The translations under genes and the position numbers were made by a program. Positions 26,334 to 36,644 of a stretch of DNA of 64,000 nucleotides are shown here, one piece after another. This DNA comes from Cellulosimicrobium funkei (GTDB lineage: Bacteria; Actinomycetota; Actinomycetes; Actinomycetales; Cellulomonadaceae), in the NCBI RefSeq assembly GCF_004519295.1, contig NZ_SOZH01000004.1, positions 1 through 64,000 on the forward strand, given 5' to 3'. Numbering within the stretch: the first letter of the stretch is position 1; the number at the start of each line of letters is the position of its first letter. The notes beneath the pieces are model-generated. The model did not search any database. It saw only the letters and a list, made by a program, of their open reading frames with translations, and had not been told where the DNA came from.

Positions 26334-27572
26334 TTGACGACGACCGACGCGCTCCAGGACGAGCGCACGCGGGTCCTGGCGCTCCAGCGGCTCGGGGTGC
26401 TCGACAGCTCGCCCGAGGAACGGTTCGACCGCGTGACGCGGCTCGCGCAGCGCCTGTTCGGCGTCCCGACGGTGAGCATCACGCTCGTGGACGCGGACCG
26501 GCAGTGGCGCAAGGCCTTCGTCGGCCTCGACGGCCCGGTCGCGCAGCGCGAGGGGGCGTTCTGCGACGTGACGATCCGTGCGGACCGCACGCTCGTCGTC
26601 GAGGACGCGGCGCAGGACGCCACGTTCGCCGACAACCCCTTCGTGGTCGGCGACCCGCACCTGCGGTTCTACGCCGGGCACCCCATCGCGGCGCCGGGCG
26701 GCGAGCTGGTCGGCACGCTGTGCGTCATCGACACCCGGCCGCGCCGGTTCGACGACGCCGACCGCTCCCTGCTGCGCGACCTCGCGCTGTGGGTCCAGGG
26801 GGAGCTCCAGCACGACGTCGAGCTCGACCGGGCGGGCGCGGTGCAGCGCGGGCTGCTCCCGCGCCGCGCCCCGGAGCTCGAGGGCTACCGGGTGGCCGCG
26901 CGGTGCCTGCCGGCCCGCGGCGTCGGGGGCGACTTCTACGACTGGACGACGACGGCCGACGGCGCCGGGTTCGTCGTCGCGGACGTCATGGGCAAGGGCA
27001 TGCCCGCCGCGATCGTGGCGGCGTCGGCACGCGCCGCGCTGCGGCCCGCGCTCCGGTCGCCGTCGCTCGCGGCGGGCGTCGAGACCGCCGACGACCTGCT
27101 CGCCCCGGACCTGGAGGAGGTCGGGTCGTTCGTCACCGCCTGGTGCGCCACGGTCGAGCGGGACAGCGGCCGGCTGGCGTACGTCGACGCGGGGCACGGC
27201 CTGGCGAGCGTGCTGCGGCCCGACGGCGGCATCCACCGCCTGGAGGCGGACGGCCTGCCGCTCGGCGTCGCGCCGGGCACCGCGCGGGTCGTCCACCACG
27301 TGACCCTCGACCCGGGCGACCGCCTCGTCGTCGTGAGCGACGGGCTCGTCGACCTGCTCGCCGACCTCGGGGTCCCGGGCGGGGACCCGCGCCTCCTCGA
27401 CCCGGACGTCCCGCTGCCCGTCCCGGACGGGCCGGCCCTCGCGCGTGCCGCGCGCGAGGTCCGGCAGGCCGGGGACGCCGCGGCGACGCTCGACGTGCTG
27501 GTCGGGCTCGCCGAGGGGCGGTACGTCGGGGACGACCTCACGGTCCTCGTGGTCGAGCGGGTCGCGGGATGA
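26334..27572 (+). CDS. GAF-domain PP2C/SpoIIE-type serine phosphatase
   Basis: A 412-residue protein from a TTG with GGGGGAAGAG upstream; the first codons (TTTDALQDERTRVLAL) fit a GAF-phosphatase start. The GAF domain covers about residues 10-160 (VSITLVDADRQWRKAFVG, FCDVTIR). The RsbU/SpoIIE phosphatase covers about 175-412, with metal-binding Asp residues in GVGGDFYDW and VVADVMGKGMPAA and later GDRLVVVSDGLVD and GDDLTVLVV. It would dephosphorylate the STAS protein encoded two genes downstream. The end overlaps the GT2 start (ATGA). Confidence 0.9.
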   Translation: MTTTDALQDERTRVLALQRLGVLDSSPEERFDRVTRLAQRLFGVPTVSITLVDADRQWRKAFVGLDGPVAQREGAFCDVTIRADRTLVVEDAAQDATFADNPFVVGDPHLRFYAGHPIAAPGGELVGTLCVIDTRPRRFDDADRSLLRDLALWVQGELQHDVELDRAGAVQRGLLPRRAPELEGYRVAARCLPARGVGGDFYDWTTTADGAGFVVADVMGKGMPAAIVAASARAALRPALRSPSLAAGVETADDLLAPDLEEVGSFVTAWCATVERDSGRLAYVDAGHGLASVLRPDGGIHRLEADGLPLGVAPGTARVVHHVTLDPGDRLVVVSDGLVDLLADLGVPGGDPRLLDPDVPLPVPDGPALARAAREVRQAGDAAATLDVLVGLAEGRYVGDDLTVLVVERVAG

Positions 27573-29584
27573 GGGGCTCCGCGCGGCGGCTCGTGCTGAT
27601 CCGCGTGCTCGTCGTGCTGGCGCTGGTCACGGGCGTCAACTACGTCGCCTGGCGGTGGCTCGAATCCGTGGCGTGGTCGCACTGGTGGATCGCCGTCCCG
27701 CTCGTGCTGGCCGAGACGTACAGCCTCGTGGACACCGCCCTCTTCGGCGTGACGATGTGGCGCCTGCGCGAGCGGGGCGAGCCGCCGCCCGCCCCGGAGG
27801 GCGTCACGGTCGACGTCTTCGTCACGACGTACGACGAGCCCGAGGAGCTCGTCCTCGCGACCGCCCGCGCGGCCCGGGCCATCCGGTACCCGCACCGCAC
27901 GTGGATCCTCGACGACGGCGCGCGCGAGAGCATGCGGGCCGCCGCCGCGGAGGCGGGCGTCGGGTACCTCACGCGCAGCGCGAGCTGGGCGGGCAAGCCG
28001 CGGCACGCGAAGGCCGGCAACCTCAACAACGCGCTGTTCCAGACGGACGGCGAGCTGCTGCTCGTGCTCGACGCCGACCAGGTGCCCGACCCGGCGATCC
28101 TCGACCGGACGGTCGGGTACTTCGCCGCCGACGAGCGCGTCGCGATCGTCCAGACCCCGCAGTGGTTCGTCAACGTCGACGACGCCGACCCCCTCGGGAG
28201 CCAGGCGCCGCTCTTCTACGGGCCGATCCAGCAGGGGAAGGACGGGTGGAACGCCGCGTTCTTCTGCGGCTCCAACGCGGTGCTGCGGCGCGAGGCGCTC
28301 ATGCAGCTGGGCGTCGTCGGGTACGTGCGGGGCGTGACGGTCGGCGTGCGGCGCGCGCTGCGCACCGCGGGCTCGGTGCTCGCCCGGGCGGCGCGCTCGC
28401 CGGAGGCGGCCGACCCGGCGGTACGGACCGCCGTCGAGCGGCTGCGCGCGGAGGCCGACGAGGCCCGCCGCGCCCTCGCGGCGGGGGAGCCCGCCGCCGA
28501 CGTCACCTACCGGTTCCAGCGCCGCGTCGACGAGGCGTCGCGCAGCGTCGTCGCCGGCCAGGTGGAGGCGCTGCGGGCGGAGCTGGCGACGGTGGAGCCC
28601 GAGCTCGTGTCCGGCGGCCCGCTCCAGGTCGACGAGGAGATCGGCCAGCTCGTCGTCGACGAGGAGGCGCTCGACCGGCTCGCGCGGCGCGACCTCTCGC
28701 CCCTCGTCGCGGTCGAGGCGGTGCGCCGCCTCGCGGACGCGGTCGACGTCGGGCGCAGCGACGAGGCGCAGGCCGTCATGCCGATGGCGACGATCTCCGT
28801 CACCGAGGACATGGCCACCGCGATGCGGCTGCACGCGCTCGGCTGGCGGTCGGTCTACCACCACGAGGTGCTGGCCCACGGGCTGGCGCCCGAGGACATG
28901 CCGACGATGCTCCAGCAGCGCCTGCGCTGGGCGCAGGGCACGGTGCAGGTGATGCTCCGGGAGAACCCGCTCACGCTGCGCGGGCTGCGCGTGGGGCAGC
29001 GGCTCATGTACTTCGCGACGATGTGGAGCTACCTCGCGGGCTTCGCCGCCCTCGCGTACCTCGCGGCGCCCATGGTGTACCTGTGCTTCGGCATCCTCCC
29101 GGTCCAGGCGTTCGGGACGGACTTCTTCGTGCGCTTCGTGCCGTACTTCGTGCTCAACCAGCTCTTGTTCCTCGTCGTGGCGCGCGGGGTGCGGACCTGG
29201 CGGGGGCAGCAGTACTCGCTCGCGCTCTTCCCGGTGTGGATCCGGGCCTGCTGGACGGCGTTCGCGAACGTCGTCCTCGGCCGCCCGCTCGGGTTCGTCG
29301 TGACGCCCAAGACGCGGACCGGCGAGCACCGGCCGGCCTGGCGCACCATCTGGCCCCAGCTCACGGCCATGGTGCTGCTCGTGGTCTCGGCCGTCGTCGG
29401 CACGGTGCGCCTCGTCGCGTTCGACGCCGACCTCGGCGCGACCCTCGTCACCCTCGCCTGGGTGGCGTACGACCTCGCGGTGCTCGGGGTGCTCGTCCCC
29501 GCCGCGCGGTACTCCGGCCCGCGCCCGCCGCGCGAGCCCGTGCCGGAGACGACGATGACCGGACGACGGACGGAGGACCAGTGA
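27569..29584 (+). CDS. Cellulose-synthase-like GT2 glycosyltransferase with inserted helical domain
   Basis: A 671-residue membrane synthase. Two N-terminal helices are followed by the GT2 core with DDG (115-117), DAD (168-170), TED (412-414) and QQRLRW (449-454), then four or five more helices. No PilZ domain follows. Between the FCGSNAVLRREAL strand (about 232-244) and the TED motif lie about 160 residues that BcsA-type enzymes lack. The insert is charged and coiled-coil-like (TAVERLRAEADEARRALAAG, VEALRAELATVEPE). The product is likely an exported beta-glucan or related polymer. The gene is between a SpoIIE-type phosphatase and a STAS protein with 4-bp overlaps, suggesting control by partner switching. 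Confidence 0.88.
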   Translation: MRGSARRLVLIRVLVVLALVTGVNYVAWRWLESVAWSHWWIAVPLVLAETYSLVDTALFGVTMWRLRERGEPPPAPEGVTVDVFVTTYDEPEELVLATARAARAIRYPHRTWILDDGARESMRAAAAEAGVGYLTRSASWAGKPRHAKAGNLNNALFQTDGELLLVLDADQVPDPAILDRTVGYFAADERVAIVQTPQWFVNVDDADPLGSQAPLFYGPIQQGKDGWNAAFFCGSNAVLRREALMQLGVVGYVRGVTVGVRRALRTAGSVLARAARSPEAADPAVRTAVERLRAEADEARRALAAGEPAADVTYRFQRRVDEASRSVVAGQVEALRAELATVEPELVSGGPLQVDEEIGQLVVDEEALDRLARRDLSPLVAVEAVRRLADAVDVGRSDEAQAVMPMATISVTEDMATAMRLHALGWRSVYHHEVLAHGLAPEDMPTMLQQRLRWAQGTVQVMLRENPLTLRGLRVGQRLMYFATMWSYLAGFAALAYLAAPMVYLCFGILPVQAFGTDFFVRFVPYFVLNQLLFLVVARGVRTWRGQQYSLALFPVWIRACWTAFANVVLGRPLGFVVTPKTRTGEHRPAWRTIWPQLTAMVLLVVSAVVGTVRLVAFDADLGATLVTLAWVAYDLAVLGVLVPAARYSGPRPPREPVPETTMTGRRTEDQ

Positions 29585-29916
29585 AGCTCGACGTGACACC
29601 GCTCGAGGAGACGGGGGCGGTGATCGTGCCGCGGGGGCGGCTCACGCTCACCACGGCACCCCAGCTGCGCGACGCGGTCGCCGACCTCGTCGAGGCGGGC
29701 CGGACCCGGCTCGTCGTCGACCTCGGGAGCCTCGAGTTCGTCGACTCCTCGGGCCTCGGCGCCCTCGTCGGCGGGCTGCGCACGACGCGCGCCGCCGGCG
29801 GAGACCTGCGGCTCGCGAACGCCGCGCCCTCCGTGGCGACGGTCCTGCGGCTCACCAACCTCGACCGCGTGCTGCGCGTGCACGACGACGCGGCGAGCGC
29901 GTTCGCCGACGGGTGA
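29581..29916 (+). CDS. STAS-domain anti-sigma-factor-antagonist-like protein
   Basis: An 111-residue single STAS domain. The phosphorylation site is in LEFVDSSGLGALVGGLR, where the Ser-Ser-Gly follows Asp as in RsbV/SpoIIAA. It begins at a GTG overlapping the GT2 stop, with GGAGGA upstream. Its state should be set by the phosphatase upstream and by the kinase-like protein downstream. Its target could be the synthase itself or a distant sigma factor. Confidence 0.9.
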   Translation: MKLDVTPLEETGAVIVPRGRLTLTTAPQLRDAVADLVEAGRTRLVVDLGSLEFVDSSGLGALVGGLRTTRAAGGDLRLANAAPSVATVLRLTNLDRVLRVHDDAASAFADG

Positions 29917-29923
29917 CCCCCGC

Positions 29924-30370
29924 GTGACCCCGCCGGACGACGCCCCGCTCGTCGTGCTGAGCGCGACCGCGTCCCCGCCGTGGCTCGACGCCCTCCCGGA
30001 CGCGTTCGCCGCGCTCTGGGGCCAGGCGCCGTGGGTGCCCGCCGACGACCGGCTCGCCGTCGAGCTCGCCACGACGGAGATCGCCGCGAACATCGTGCGG
30101 CACTCGCCCGCACCCGAGACGGTCGAGGTCCGGGCCGAGCTCGACGCCGGGGCGGGACGCGTCGTCGTCGTGCTGCGCGACACCGCGCCCGCCGCCGACG
30201 TCGACCTCGACCGCACCATGCCGCCCCCCGAGGCCGAGTCCGGGCGCGGGCTCGCGCTCGCGCGGGCGTGCGTCGACCGGCTCGAGCACCGCTGGGTCGC
30301 GGGGACCTCCGGCAACGAGTGGCGCCTCGAACGCCGCGTGCGCACCGCCGGAGGCGGCCCCGGCGGCTAG
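29924..30370 (+). CDS. RsbW-like anti-sigma/serine kinase ATPase
   Basis: A 148-residue HATPase_c_2 (GHKL) protein from a GTG, 7 bases after the STAS gene. The N-box is EIAANIVRHS and a G-box-like ESGRGLALARACVDRLEH follows. It would phosphorylate the STAS protein and bind a sigma factor or enzyme when free. With the two genes above it completes a three-part partner-switching module. Confidence 0.85.
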   Translation: MTPPDDAPLVVLSATASPPWLDALPDAFAALWGQAPWVPADDRLAVELATTEIAANIVRHSPAPETVEVRAELDAGAGRVVVVLRDTAPAADVDLDRTMPPPEAESGRGLALARACVDRLEHRWVAGTSGNEWRLERRVRTAGGGPGG

Positions 30371-33164: not shown

Positions 33165-33335
33165 TCAGGCCTGCTCAGCGCGGCGGGCGGCGGCCCGACG
33201 GCGCAGGACGCGCGCCGTCGTGACGAGCGCGAGGCCGGCGACGAGGAGCGTCCAGGCCGCGACGACGTGGAACGCGGTCGCGACGCCGGTCACGGCGAGG
33301 ACGGGGGCGGTCTGGGCGAGGGTCGAGTTGTACAT
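33165..33335 (-). CDS. Tiny membrane protein with LAXTG-like sorting signal
   Basis: Only 56 residues: MYNSTLAQTAPVLAVTG, a 22-residue hydrophobic helix, then the basic tail RVLRRRAAARRAEQA. LAVTG followed by a helix and Arg-rich tail is the layout of a class E sortase (LAXTG) signal. There is no signal peptide and almost no mature part before it. The ATG has GGAAGGA upstream. It lies 85 bases past the GT2 gene on the same strand. It may be an anchored stub, a sortase decoy or a small subunit of the synthase. Confidence 0.7.
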   Translation of the reverse strand: MYNSTLAQTAPVLAVTGVATAFHVVAAWTLLVAGLALVTTARVLRRRAAARRAEQA

Positions 33336-33420
33336 GGCTGCTGTCCTTCCGGGACGGGTGAGGGCATGCCGAGGACGTCCCGGTCGCGTGCGCGGCGGGG
33401 CGGGTCGGCGGGGGTGAGGG

Positions 33421-34539
33421 TCAGGCGGTGGCGGCGACGTGGTTCCACGTCGTCTGGCGCCGCGTGACGAACAGCGCTGCGGCGTGCAGGAACGCGCGCT
33501 GCAGGGCGAGGTCGTAGAGGAGCTCCGGCAGCACGAGCGCGGCCAGCAGCCGCGCGCGCCGCCCGGCGCCCCAGACGGTGACGAGGCGCTCCGCGGCGAA
33601 CACGAGCCCGACGGCCGCCCACAGCGGGGACAGCGTGAAGGTCCCCGTCACGAGGGTGACGGCCGTGAGGAGCAGGTAGGCCGCCATCATGAGCGTGCCG
33701 ACGGCGAGCATCACCTGCTGGCCGACGTAGCGCCACGTGGTGCGCGTGAGGCCGTACTCGGCGAGGTTGTCGAGCATCCCCTTGTACCAGCGGACGCGCT
33801 GCCGATGCAGATCGCCTGCCGTCGGCATGAGCTCGGTCGTGCAGCTCATGGTGACGGGGGAGCGCAGCTCGTGGCCGAGCGTGCGCAGCGCGAGGGTGAG
33901 CTCGGAGTCCTCGGTGATCGCGTGCCGGTCGTACACGTCGCCGCGCTCGCCGGGGAGGACCGAGCCGCGGGCGTCGGCGACCTCCTGGAGCGCGGTGCGG
34001 CGCACGAGCGCGGCGGTCCCGGTGAGCACGGCCGTGCGGCCGGTGAGGTCCACCTGCACGCCGTAGCGCGTGTACTCGTTGGCCTGGCAGTGCTGCAGGT
34101 AGCCCTGCGGCGGCCGACCGCGGAACACGCCGCCGACCGCGGCGACCTCGGGCTCCGAGGCGAGCACGGCGAGCCCTTCCTCGACGAAGGTGGGGGCGAT
34201 CGTGGTGTCCGCGTCGAGGACCATGACGACGTCCTCCGTCGTGGTCGCGATCGCCTGGTTGAGCGCCCCCGCCTTGCGGGCCGTGTTGCCCACGGTCTCC
34301 ATGACGTCCGCGCCGGCGGCGCGGGCGACCGCGACGGTCGCGTCCGTGCTGTTGTCCGAGACGACGAGCACCCGGTCGGGGCGGCGCGTCTGGGCCGCGA
34401 GCGAGGCGACGGTGGCGGGGAGCGCCTGCTCCTCGTCGTGGGCGGGGATGACGACGACGACGCGCACGGCGGCCCCGTCCGCGGGACGGGCGGCCGCCTC
34501 GGCGCGGTGGCGGGGGGCGTGCGGGGCAGTGGTGTTCAC
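33421..34539 (-). CDS. GT2 family glycosyltransferase, processive membrane type
   Basis: About 372 residues. GT2 core: VVVIPAHDEEQALPATVASL, DNSTDAT, VMVLDADTTI, the acceptor-loop ITEDSELTLAL and QRVRWYKGM (QxxRW type), followed by three or four membrane helices. This is like hyaluronan or poly-N-acetylglucosamine synthases. The GTG at 34539 has GGAG six bases upstream; a TTG 33 bases earlier is possible. Upstream lies an inverted repeat and a repeated CTCAGCGTTCC (34591, 34635). Product unknown. Confidence 0.88.
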   Translation of the reverse strand: MNTTAPHAPRHRAEAAARPADGAAVRVVVVIPAHDEEQALPATVASLAAQTRRPDRVLVVSDNSTDATVAVARAAGADVMETVGNTARKAGALNQAIATTTEDVVMVLDADTTIAPTFVEEGLAVLASEPEVAAVGGVFRGRPPQGYLQHCQANEYTRYGVQVDLTGRTAVLTGTAALVRRTALQEVADARGSVLPGERGDVYDRHAITEDSELTLALRTLGHELRSPVTMSCTTELMPTAGDLHRQRVRWYKGMLDNLAEYGLTRTTWRYVGQQVMLAVGTLMMAAYLLLTAVTLVTGTFTLSPLWAAVGLVFAAERLVTVWGAGRRARLLAALVLPELLYDLALQRAFLHAAALFVTRRQTTWNHVAATA

Positions 34540-34651
34540 CGGAGGCTCCAGGTCGACGAGTGCTGTCGACAAGGAGCCTCGGGCGGTCGCCTCAGCGTTC
34601 CCCCGGGGGTGGCGCAGCGGTCGGCGAGGTCTGGCTCAGCGTTCCGGAAAT

Positions 34652-34671
34652 CTGATTGAGAGTTCAATCAG
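34652..34671. promoter_or_regulatory. Perfect inverted repeat before the GT2 gene
   Basis: CTGATTGA and TCAATCAG with a 4-base spacer, in an AT-rich patch between the GT2 start and the anti-sigma gene's end. Strong candidate operator for a MarR/GntR/TetR-class factor. It could also be a weak terminator for the rightward strand. Confidence 0.5.
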
Positions 34672-34714: not shown

Positions 34715-35434
34715 TCAGACGTCGGCGGCCGCGAGCGCGCCGTCCACCCCCACGACCCCGAGCTCGAGCCGCGCGATCCCGTCCACGGGCACCGCCGACG
34801 ACGCGCCCAGGCCCGACGAGCTCCCCGCCTCCGTCGAGGACCACGTCGCCACGACCGAGCGCGTGCCGTCGTCGTCCACGAGCACGAGCTCGTACGTCGC
34901 GCCGTCCTCCCAGACCCCGGCCGGGTACGAGCACGACCAGTCGAGGCGCGTGCCCCACGAGGCCGGCGTGAGCGTGAGCTCGGCGCGCACGTCCGCGCCG
35001 CCGACCGGCTCGAGCGCGACCTGGGTCGTGCCGGACGTCGCGGGGGGTGGGACGTCGTCGGGCCGCGTCACCGCCGCGCCGCCCGCGGCGCCCGCGACGA
35101 CCAGACCCACCGCCGCCACGGACAGGAGCGACCGCCGTCGGGTGCGGCGGCGCCGGGCGCTCGCGGCCACCACCGCGAGGGGCACGACGGCGCCCCCCGC
35201 CCCGCCGGACGCCTCGGCCGGGACGTCGGTGCGCGCGTCGTCCACGAGCGCGTCCGCGTGCTCGGCCGTGAGCATGCCGAGGATGCCCGGCATGCCCGCG
35301 AGCTCCGCGACGGCCTCGCGGCACGCCACGCACGTCGCGAGGTGCTGCTCGAACGCGCGCCGGTCGCGCGGGCTGAGCGCGCCCAGCACGTAGGCGGCGT
35401 CCCACTCGCGGTACGGGTCCGGGGTAGCGGTCAT
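34715..35434 (-). CDS. Zinc-finger anti-sigma factor
   Basis: A 239-residue RskA-type protein. The N-terminus (YREWDAAYVLGALSPRDRRA, then FEQHLATCVACREAV) has the ZAS motif H-x3-C-x2-C that binds the ECF sigma factor. One membrane helix follows at about residues 100-122 (LLSVAAVGLVVAGAAGGAAV), and an external beta domain (VALEPVGGADVRAELTLTP) completes it. It overlaps the sigma gene (ATGA). Stress outside the cell would trigger its proteolysis and free the sigma. Confidence 0.9.
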   Translation of the reverse strand: MTATPDPYREWDAAYVLGALSPRDRRAFEQHLATCVACREAVAELAGMPGILGMLTAEHADALVDDARTDVPAEASGGAGGAVVPLAVVAASARRRRTRRRSLLSVAAVGLVVAGAAGGAAVTRPDDVPPPATSGTTQVALEPVGGADVRAELTLTPASWGTRLDWSCSYPAGVWEDGATYELVLVDDDGTRSVVATWSSTEAGSSSGLGASSAVPVDGIARLELGVVGVDGALAAADV

Positions 35435-35961
35435 GACGAGACTCCCTTCTCCTGCAGCGCGAGCCTCAGCGCGCGGAGCGCGTAGTGCATGCGGGACTTC
35501 ACCGTCCCGGGCGGGACGCCGTGCGCCGACGCCATCTCGGCCACGGAGCGCCCGTGGTAGTAGGCGTCGACGACGACCGCCCGGTGCTCGGGCGAGAGCG
35601 AGACCAGCGCGTCCGCGACGAGCCACGCGTCGAGCACGGCCTGGGTCGCGTCGGCCTCGCCGCGGTCGGGCACGTCGGCGCTCGCGAGCTCGCGGCGGTG
35701 GTGGGCGCTGCGCAGCTCGTCGACGACGAGGTTGCGCGCCACCGTGAAGAGCCACGCGCGCACCGAACCCTCCGGCCGCTCCAGCACCTCCGGGTGGCGC
35801 CACGCGCGCAGCAACGTCTCCTGCACCACGTCCTGCGCCTGCGCCGGGTCGTCGGTGAGGCGCGCGACGTAGCGCTCCAGCGCCGGCCCGTGCGCGGCGT
35901 GGACCGCCCGCAGCAGGTCGTCGGCGTCGGCGCGCACGCGCGGCACCTCCCCGTCGGTCAC
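35431..35961 (-). CDS. ECF RNA polymerase sigma factor, SigK/SigL type
   Basis: A 176-residue ECF sigma. Region 2 is DDPAQAQDVVQETLLRAWRH and SVRAWLFTVARNLVVDELR. Region 4 is ALVSLSPEHRAVVVDAYYHG, RSVAEMASAHGVPPGTVKSR. The GTG start overlaps the yceI stop (GTGA), so yceI, sigma and anti-sigma form one operon. The divergent lipoprotein gene next door is a plausible target. Confidence 0.92.
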   Translation of the reverse strand: MTDGEVPRVRADADDLLRAVHAAHGPALERYVARLTDDPAQAQDVVQETLLRAWRHPEVLERPEGSVRAWLFTVARNLVVDELRSAHHRRELASADVPDRGEADATQAVLDAWLVADALVSLSPEHRAVVVDAYYHGRSVAEMASAHGVPPGTVKSRMHYALRALRLALQEKGVSS

Positions 35962-36644
35962 GACCCGGCCGACCGCACGAGGTCGAGGCCGAACTCGACG
36001 CTGCCCGCGTCGTCGACCGTGACGAACCCGAGGCTCGGCGCCTCCACGTCGAAGTCGGAGAACGTGATCGGCACGCTCCCGACGACCTGGACGCCGTCGG
36101 TGGTCGGGCCGACCTGCGCCTCGACCGTGACGGCCTGCGTCACGCCGTGGATCGTCAGGTCGCCCGCGAGCTCGACGTCGCCCGACCCGGTCGGCAGGTC
36201 CACGGGACCGGTCAGCTCGAACGTCGCGGTCGGGTACGTCCCGACCTCGAGCGCGTCGCCCCGGAAGTACGCGTCGCGCGGCGGCTCGTCGGTCGCGACG
36301 CTCGCCATGTCGACCTCGATCGTCGCCGCGGTGAGCGCGCCGTCCGCGACGGTGAACGACCCCGTGACCTCCTCGGTCCGGCCGGTCACCGTGACGTCCT
36401 CGCCCTGCAGCACCTCGTGCACGCGGTACCCCGCGTACGAGCCGTCCCCGACCGTCCACGCACCGGCCAGGTCCGCCGGGTCGAGCGCGGCGCCGTCGCC
36501 CGACGGCGCGTCGAGCGTCGGCTCCTCGGCCGCCGCGCGGTTGGACCAGTCCGCGTACAGGCCCGGGCCGAACGCGACGGCCGCACCGCCGAGCACCACG
36601 ACACCGACGCCGACCCCCACGAGCACCTTCGTCCTCCTGCGCAC
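35958..36644 (-). CDS. YceI-family protein with N-terminal membrane anchor
   Basis: A 228-residue protein. A start with RRRTK and a hydrophobic helix (VLVGVGVGVVVLGGAAVAF) anchors a YceI lipocalin-like barrel (AGYRVHEVLQGEDVTVTGRT, GDLTIHGVTQAVTVEA, VPITFSDFDVEAP). YceI proteins bind isoprenoid lipids. The GTG has GGAAGGGG before it. First gene in the sigma operon, so likely both regulated by and acting with the envelope stress response. Confidence 0.88.
   Translation of the reverse strand: MRRRTKVLVGVGVGVVVLGGAAVAFGPGLYADWSNRAAAEEPTLDAPSGDGAALDPADLAGAWTVGDGSYAGYRVHEVLQGEDVTVTGRTEEVTGSFTVADGALTAATIEVDMASVATDEPPRDAYFRGDALEVGTYPTATFELTGPVDLPTGSGDVELAGDLTIHGVTQAVTVEAQVGPTTDGVQVVGSVPITFSDFDVEAPSLGFVTVDDAGSVEFGLDLVRSAGS

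Follow-up and report, generated by a model that had tools for sequence, protein, structure and literature searches.

How synthase-made polysaccharides become attached to Gram-positive walls is, to our knowledge, poorly understood. Among the closest described systems are the chaplins of Streptomyces, for which PMC5148588 describes an LAXTG signal and a class E sortase; the same paper proposes that a tyrosine of the sortase SrtE1 (counted here as Tyr229) favors Ala in LAXTG and states that SrtE1 is also able to take Pro at that motif position. In Actinoplanes, SspA, CwpA, and CwpB are SrtE-dependent wall proteins (PMC13251363), and typical sortase substrates have a signal peptide (PMC11980579). 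The PEP-CTERM/exosortase systems of Gram-negative bacteria couple the sorting of tagged proteins to exopolysaccharide genes (PMC1569441). In the papers searched, we came upon no account of such a tiny LAXTG protein and a family 2 glycosyltransferase (GT2) as a pair, whether or not an exosortase is involved, and the theme is partly catalogued by NCBI models for LAXTG tiny proteins (NF058583) and for an XrtP-associated glycosyltransferase (NF053846).

The locus analyzed here lies in a 64,000-nucleotide stretch of Cellulosimicrobium funkei DNA, the whole of which is called the window. A GT2 gene is followed there, on the same strand and after a gap of 85 nt, by a gene for a 56-residue protein (Table 1) with the sequence MYNSTLAQTAPVLAVTGVATAFHVVAAWTLLVAGLALVTTARVLRRRAAARRAEQA.

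Table 1. Features of the tiny gene and its GT2 neighbor (window coordinates)
Feature	Positions	Strand	Basis
Tiny LAxTG membrane protein, 56 aa	33165..33335, stop codon included	(-)	ORF, ATG start
LAVTG sorting motif, residues 13-17	33285..33299	(-)	motif conservation
Membrane helix (predicted) with the beginning of the Arg tail, residues about 19-44	33204..33281	(-)	conservation, hydropathy
GT2 synthase, 372 aa	33421..34539	(-)	GTG start; TTG start at 34572 possible

The tiny protein opens with Met-Tyr and a brief segment free of charge, continues with LAVTG and a single membrane helix (best 19-residue Kyte-Doolittle mean, 1.99), and ends in an Arg tail, so that the hydrophobic stretch and basic tail that class E sortase substrates require after LAxTG are both present. 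It is the only ORF in the whole window that fits the pattern of L[AP]xT[GA], a hydrophobic stretch, and a basic end. Residues 1 to 17 hold no charge and residues 42 to 56 hold six Arg/Lys and one acidic residue; by the positive-inside rule, an established rule of membrane topology, the motif is therefore predicted to face outward. The sequence GGAAGGA stands 8 nt upstream of the ATG, and in relatives, too, the start is ATG/GTG-Tyr and is preceded by a purine-rich stretch. At one locus (L124), a second start codon occurs upstream of the conserved one. A longer frame with a missed upstream signal peptide was considered and rejected: although the frame stays open upstream, conservation places the start at ATG/GTG-Tyr, behind the purine-rich stretch. 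Judged from its sequence, the protein appears to have no signal peptide, as only 12 uncharged residues precede LAVTG and the start is conserved.

Twenty-four window-type tiny genes from 21 Cellulomonadaceae genomes were compared; of the profile matches, those above about 36 bits, plus that of G005, were followed up. The 24 genes comprise 21 distinct sequences. Near copies among the rows of the analysis are L048-L050, L129 with L130, and L137 and L138 with the window. LAxTG is kept in all 24, and x takes five residues among the distinct rows (T in eight, A in seven, L in three, V in two, and M in one). Invariant in the 21 distinct homologues are M1, Y2, L13, A14, T16, G17, W28, L30, G34, A36, R42, and V43; the hypergeometric chance of finding all four motif residues among 11 invariant columns of 48 is 0.0017. 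In 16 of 16 tiny-gene pairs tested, dN was below dS, with a ratio of 0.06 to 0.47 in 15 and no amino-acid change in the sixteenth (window gene versus L042: dN 0.18, dS 1.3; L042 versus L121: dN 0.06, dS 0.95). The tiny gene is thus under purifying selection. That it is a relic or a chance ORF, as its shortness and its scores below NCBIfam cut-offs might suggest, is very improbable and already largely refuted by this conservation, which extends to the start, motif, and helix, and by its recurrence with GT2 genes in two gene orders.

A same-strand GT2 gene adjoins the tiny gene in 21 of the 24 cases, with the GT2 gene first in 14 and the tiny gene first in seven (gaps in this survey were measured to BLAST ends, not true starts and stops). 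At all five loci checked among those seven, the tiny-gene stop codon and the inferred GT2 start share nucleotides (ATGA/GTGA kind), which is a sign of translational coupling. As for the other three cases, a second tiny copy in genome G036 (L040) has no GT2 gene within about 5 kb on either side, and at L125 (G167) and L127 (G185) the tiny gene and the GT2 gene lie on different contigs of the same genome. The preliminary description had presented the locus as a 56-residue LAXTG protein paired with a GT2 synthase, nearly all of it sorting signal and devoid of a signal peptide; both statements hold, the ORF being conserved and the pair recurring in the family. It had also named a lack of LAVTG conservation beside GT2 genes as the observation that would speak against it; the idea withstood this test, LAxTG being kept in all 24 homologues, 21 of them next to a GT2 gene. 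Named carriers of the pair include Cellulosimicrobium, Isoptericola, Oerskovia, Sanguibacter, and Cellulomonas, and the window genome (4.38 Mb) has two.

Counted from the glycosyltransferase side, 23 GT2 genes with at least 54% identity occur in 21 of the 221 family genomes, and 21 of the 23 adjoin a tiny gene. Twenty-two of them (20 adjacent, 2 parted) form one branch with a support of 98/99, in a tree that leaves out the broken GT2 of G038, which reads in two frames. On the sister branch (identity at most 51%), a tiny partner was found at none of the 11 loci examined, namely 10 of the 37 family genomes with such a GT2, scanned over about 1.5 kb per side, plus L183 from the named set. Elsewhere in the phylum, a Rubrobacteraceae contig (L185) carries a GT2 with 41 to 43% identity followed by a gene for a 66-residue MY...LPETG protein with a likely ribosome site, the motif of which departs from that of the window at the Ala/Pro position separating sortase classes. 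Since this GT2, too, is followed by a tiny protein, we rejected the simple scenario in which the partner was acquired just once, where the pair branch begins; the association may predate that branch and have been lost from its sister, or may have been gained twice. A profile of both tiny types (the second is described below), run phylum-wide over 346 genomes, matched 20 genomes at E <=0.001, none of them above 32 bits outside the window genome.

No neighbor is common to all pair loci. An operon with the MerR gene was rejected, as that gene lies on the other strand and has a full-length relative in only L009 among 15 loci searched. In some Cellulomonas and Sanguibacter (L129, L177, L125, and L127), genes for an FtsX-type permease, an ABC ATPase, and a TetR regulator adjoin the tiny gene (domains tested on L129 only). 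All three remain with the tiny gene at L125, although the GT2 gene is elsewhere; at L127, likewise parted from its GT2, the permease and TetR genes remain and the ATPase is unmatched. At L122, L132, and six other loci, which belong to Oerskovia, Cellulomonas, and one Cellulosimicrobium, the pair has as its neighbor a gene for a large AAA-LuxR (MalT-like) regulator, the domains of which were tested at L122 only. In Oerskovia merdavium (L045/L184), the GT2 reads in two overlapping frames, which reflects a frameshift or an assembly error. Upstream of the window GT2 lies a perfect inverted repeat, CTGATTGA-GAGT-TCAATCAG (34652-34671), a possible operator that is identical in G006 (L137) and degraded in G010 (L138), both genomes of the same genus as the window, and two GAACGCTGAG direct repeats stand between it and the GT2 gene. 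Just upstream of the tiny gene, L122, L123, L043, and L038 have a GGTGGTTCCACC-type stretch; in the first two, this stretch is able to form a fold that covers the ribosome site and the start codon, a possible translational control. Further upstream of the window GT2 (34718-36644, minus strand) are genes for a zf-HC2 anti-sigma factor, an ECF sigma factor, and a YceI protein, and at about 27500-30370 on the plus strand the ORF listing has a second, cellulose-synthase-like GT2, followed by apparent STAS and anti-sigma kinase genes.

The synthase is assigned to GT2 by Pfam and has the residues of a GT-A domain (D66, DAD 109-111, ED 210-211, and QRVRW 247-251), of which D66, D109/D111, E210/D211, and Q247/R250/W251 are invariant in 32 aligned GT2 rows. 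Its best NCBIfam match was PgaC_IcaA (TIGR03937), at 71.1 bits far below the cut-off of 422.3. Membership of NF053846 was rejected, as the score was 23.7 bits against a cut-off of 520 and the protein sits on a separate branch of the tree. A structural model (pLDDT 82, pTM 0.79, 15 sequences), in which some of the membrane region has a pLDDT of only about 50-65, predicts three C-terminal membrane-length helices (266-298, 305-325, and 328-358) and no N-terminal one. When this model was compared with known structures by VIA-align, the top matches were mostly hyaluronan, cellulose, and chitin synthases: Chlorella virus hyaluronan synthase was the best (Z 26.9, rmsd 3.3, 325 aligned), together with BcsA (Z 25.5, rmsd 3.4, 326 aligned, and Z 24.6, rmsd 3.4, 325 aligned) and Chs1 (Z 23.1, rmsd 3.2, 314 aligned), and the mannosyltransferase PcManGT tied with the synthases (Z 25.1, rmsd 3.4, 288 aligned). 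Because of these synthase-like matches and the invariant Q, R, and W of QxxRW, the enzyme is likely a processive polymer synthase, to which we assign no particular product sugar. A PgaD/IcaD-type relationship of the 56-residue protein, a very short query, gained no Pfam match and no such NCBIfam match.

With regard to sorting, the window genome encodes a class E sortase, which scores 233.8 bits with NF033747 (cut-off 160). In an alignment with SrtE1 of Streptomyces coelicolor (5cuw), the tyrosine of the 'GHY' in this sortase falls on the residue counted as Tyr229. Relatives of this sortase were present in all 38 genomes tested (21 with the pair, 7 of exosortase type, and 10 unpaired), and the window genome has a second, class F-like sortase (106.6 bits versus a cut-off of 166). 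TIGR01167 at E <=10 gave 22 matches in the window genome, 10 with LAxTG (LATTG six, LASTG two, LAQTG and LAETG one each), none with LPxTG, and 12 without either motif. Since the same search also matched 14 of 14 control genomes (9 over cut-off), motifs rather than matches were counted, and these counts are not a full census. An exosortase as processing enzyme was rejected for the window genome, in which neither one exosortase protein query nor TIGR04178 gave a match; over the 21 pair genomes, TIGR04178 returned nothing above its cut-off of 23 and a single match below it (G036, 14.9 bits).

A different picture emerged for a second tiny type (MYN..PG...GALAVTG), which occurs in other Cellulosimicrobium and relatives near an exosortase and an NF053846-type GT2. 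Glycosyltransferases at these exosortase loci scored below the NF053846 cut-off at L047 (285.5) and above it at L139 (543.1). The exosortase of L047 passes TIGR04178 (47 versus 23) and PF09721 (35.9 versus 25.7) and scores 87.9, 80.8, and 65.6 bits with XrtR, XrtS, and XrtP, all below the cut-offs of those models. NF053846 matched 33 of 394 genomes of the class, and we surveyed 27 loci, from 20 of these 33 genomes and seven of the window family, with a single exosortase query at E 0.01, so that divergent exosortases may be missed. Thirteen loci had an exosortase match, and 12 of these carried a Met-Tyr-starting L[AP]xTG protein, short in all but one (L259, 112 residues, with 74 glycine-rich residues before the motif); the thirteenth (L264) yielded no tiny protein. 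The motifs at the 12 loci were LAVTG, LAMTG, LAFTG, LAQTG, LPFTG, and LPQTG, and at L258 the tiny protein lies on the strand opposite to the GT2. Among 13 loci without an exosortase match, a tiny L[AP]xTG protein was found in none, and at the remaining locus (L136 in G264) the tiny protein is present, with the exosortase just outside the stretch fetched. Loci L256, L257, L260, and L262, which make up four of the seven with a GT2 over the NF053846 cut-off, showed neither an exosortase match nor a tiny protein nearby, and a loose search for exosortase-like patterns at these four found nothing convincing. At L126 and L136 an acyltransferase-SGNH gene lies nearby, a hint that the polymer of the exosortase version is acylated.

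The two tiny families align with each other in hhalign (96.8%, E 2.7e-10), a score that the helix present in both can inflate. In alignment A5, two rows were shortened, L050, L258, and L259 were left out, and the LPQTG row was misplaced by the aligner. Their GT2 partners fall on two separate tree branches. One tiny protein type thus accompanies both of these lineages, together with an exosortase in the first case and presumably with sortase E in the second; the window pair belongs to the latter.

A tag next to a synthase in many soil bacteria suggests that it helps to tie the product of the synthase, or its machinery, to the wall. The reading that we favor, if tentatively and at slightly less than an even chance, is that the tiny protein serves the processive GT2 as a dedicated partner and is a substrate of the class E sortase, most likely putting a wall tether where the polymer exits. 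The analysis establishes the pairing, the conserved motif and start, the sortase type, a predicted fold like that of synthases, and the failure to detect an exosortase; topology, cleavage, physical contact, and, above all, the glycan link are inferred, as follows. The two proteins would be made together and meet in the membrane, the tiny one inserting N-out/C-in without a signal peptide, and its conserved helix would be the likely contact with the small membrane part of the synthase. Sortase E would then recognize LAVTG, cut between T16 and G17, and join the 16-residue MY...LAVT peptide to the wall, so that MYNSTLAQTAPVLAVT would be the peptide expected on peptidoglycan fragments. In the weakest step, this tether at the site of polymer emergence would carry or hold the glycan, perhaps through Tyr2 or a peptide Thr/Ser; we saw no glycan-to-peptide ligase and know of none. 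For this reading we counted (i) the pairing in 21 of 24 cases, with the stop/start overlap and the single branch of paired GT2s, (ii) LAxTG in every homologue, (iii) LAxTG as the code of the genome, (iv) its own class E sortase, with relatives in all 38 genomes tested, (v) no exosortase above cut-off in the pair genomes, (vi) related tiny proteins near an exosortase and another GT2 branch, (vii) the Rubrobacteraceae GT2 with its MY...LPETG protein, and (viii) the structural matches of the GT2 model; against it stand the sister GT2s without a partner, L040 without a GT2, the two parted pairs, the NF058583 score below cut-off, and L256, L257, L260, and L262 with neither exosortase match nor tiny protein.

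The helix is conserved beyond the needs of an anchor, which points to a subunit role. The protein could then regulate the synthase, or help to assemble it, as a subunit with one helix and a purely structural, uncut LAxTG, and the invariant W28, L30, G34, A36, R42, and V43, the stop/start overlap with the GT2 gene, and the three membrane-length helices of the GT2 model, fewer than in hyaluronan and cellulose synthases, would all suit such a role. We nevertheless consider it rather unlikely, given that the motif is constant at L, A/P, T, and G alone and variable at x, that the motif is the code of the other recognizable sorting signals of the genome, that relatives occur near an exosortase, and that sister GT2s manage without a tiny protein. 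Quite unlikely, in our estimation, is a sortase substrate in which cleavage works as a switch or serves to release or display a signal peptide, with the polymer unattached. The conserved Met-Tyr start with a variable middle, as in short signals, and the single transpeptidase near a single tiny protein in the exosortase version agree with this idea, but no neighbor is shared by all pair loci, and the FtsX-type permease and TetR genes occur only in some Cellulomonas and Sanguibacter. The preliminary description had offered either anchoring of a polymer through sortase E or a synthase subunit that mimics a sorting signal. In the former, the sortase fits, with a close relative in every genome tested, and the polymer as cargo is inferred. 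The latter is half supported: the conserved helix and the apparent translational coupling of some pairs speak for a subunit, but pure mimicry is disfavored by the exosortase gene near related tiny proteins and by a motif in which x is free and L, A/P, T, and G are fixed.

Returning to the tether reading, it may be extended to a general scheme, itself unlikely, in which an interchangeable transpeptidase (sortase E in the window genome, an exosortase in relatives, and presumably an LPxTG-type sortase in Rubrobacteria) joins GT2-made polysaccharide to the wall via a short Met-Tyr carrier peptide, 16 residues long here. The same tiny type with an exosortase at some loci and, most simply, sortase E at others would link two sorting systems normally kept separate. 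A sortase substrate that is so close to minimal and so firmly tied to one synthase gene also provides a small, testable handle, comprising two genes, one sortase, and one cut site.

Compared with known systems, the window GT2 shares a GT-A domain with QxxRW and membrane helices with PgaC/IcaA and with hyaluronan, cellulose, and chitin synthases, whereas it scores far under the PgaC cut-off and its model has no N-terminal membrane helices. The tiny protein resembles NF058583 (LAXTG_small_WW) proteins in being a tiny MY...LAxTG sequence with a helix and a basic tail. This model, the name of which gives no function, was its only NCBIfam match at E <=1 (17.3 bits, E 0.0028), and exosortase-linked tiny proteins scored 41.9, 40.1, 37.7, 29.4, and 21.1 bits (L261 gave no match), all below the cut-off of 65; over 198 genomes, 38 had a weak match and none exceeded the cut-off. 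The XrtP/XrtR/XrtS-like exosortase loci are alike in that a processive GT2 (NF053846, XrtP-associated) has a Met-Tyr...L[AP]xTG protein in its vicinity, whereas the window genome has no exosortase match and its GT2 belongs to another branch. PEP-CTERM systems differ from the window in their many diverse tagged proteins, generally with a signal peptide, in their motif, and in having an outer membrane. Finally, the SrtE substrates of Streptomyces and Actinoplanes are surface proteins, whereas the window protein is nearly all sorting signal and is tied to a glycan synthase gene.
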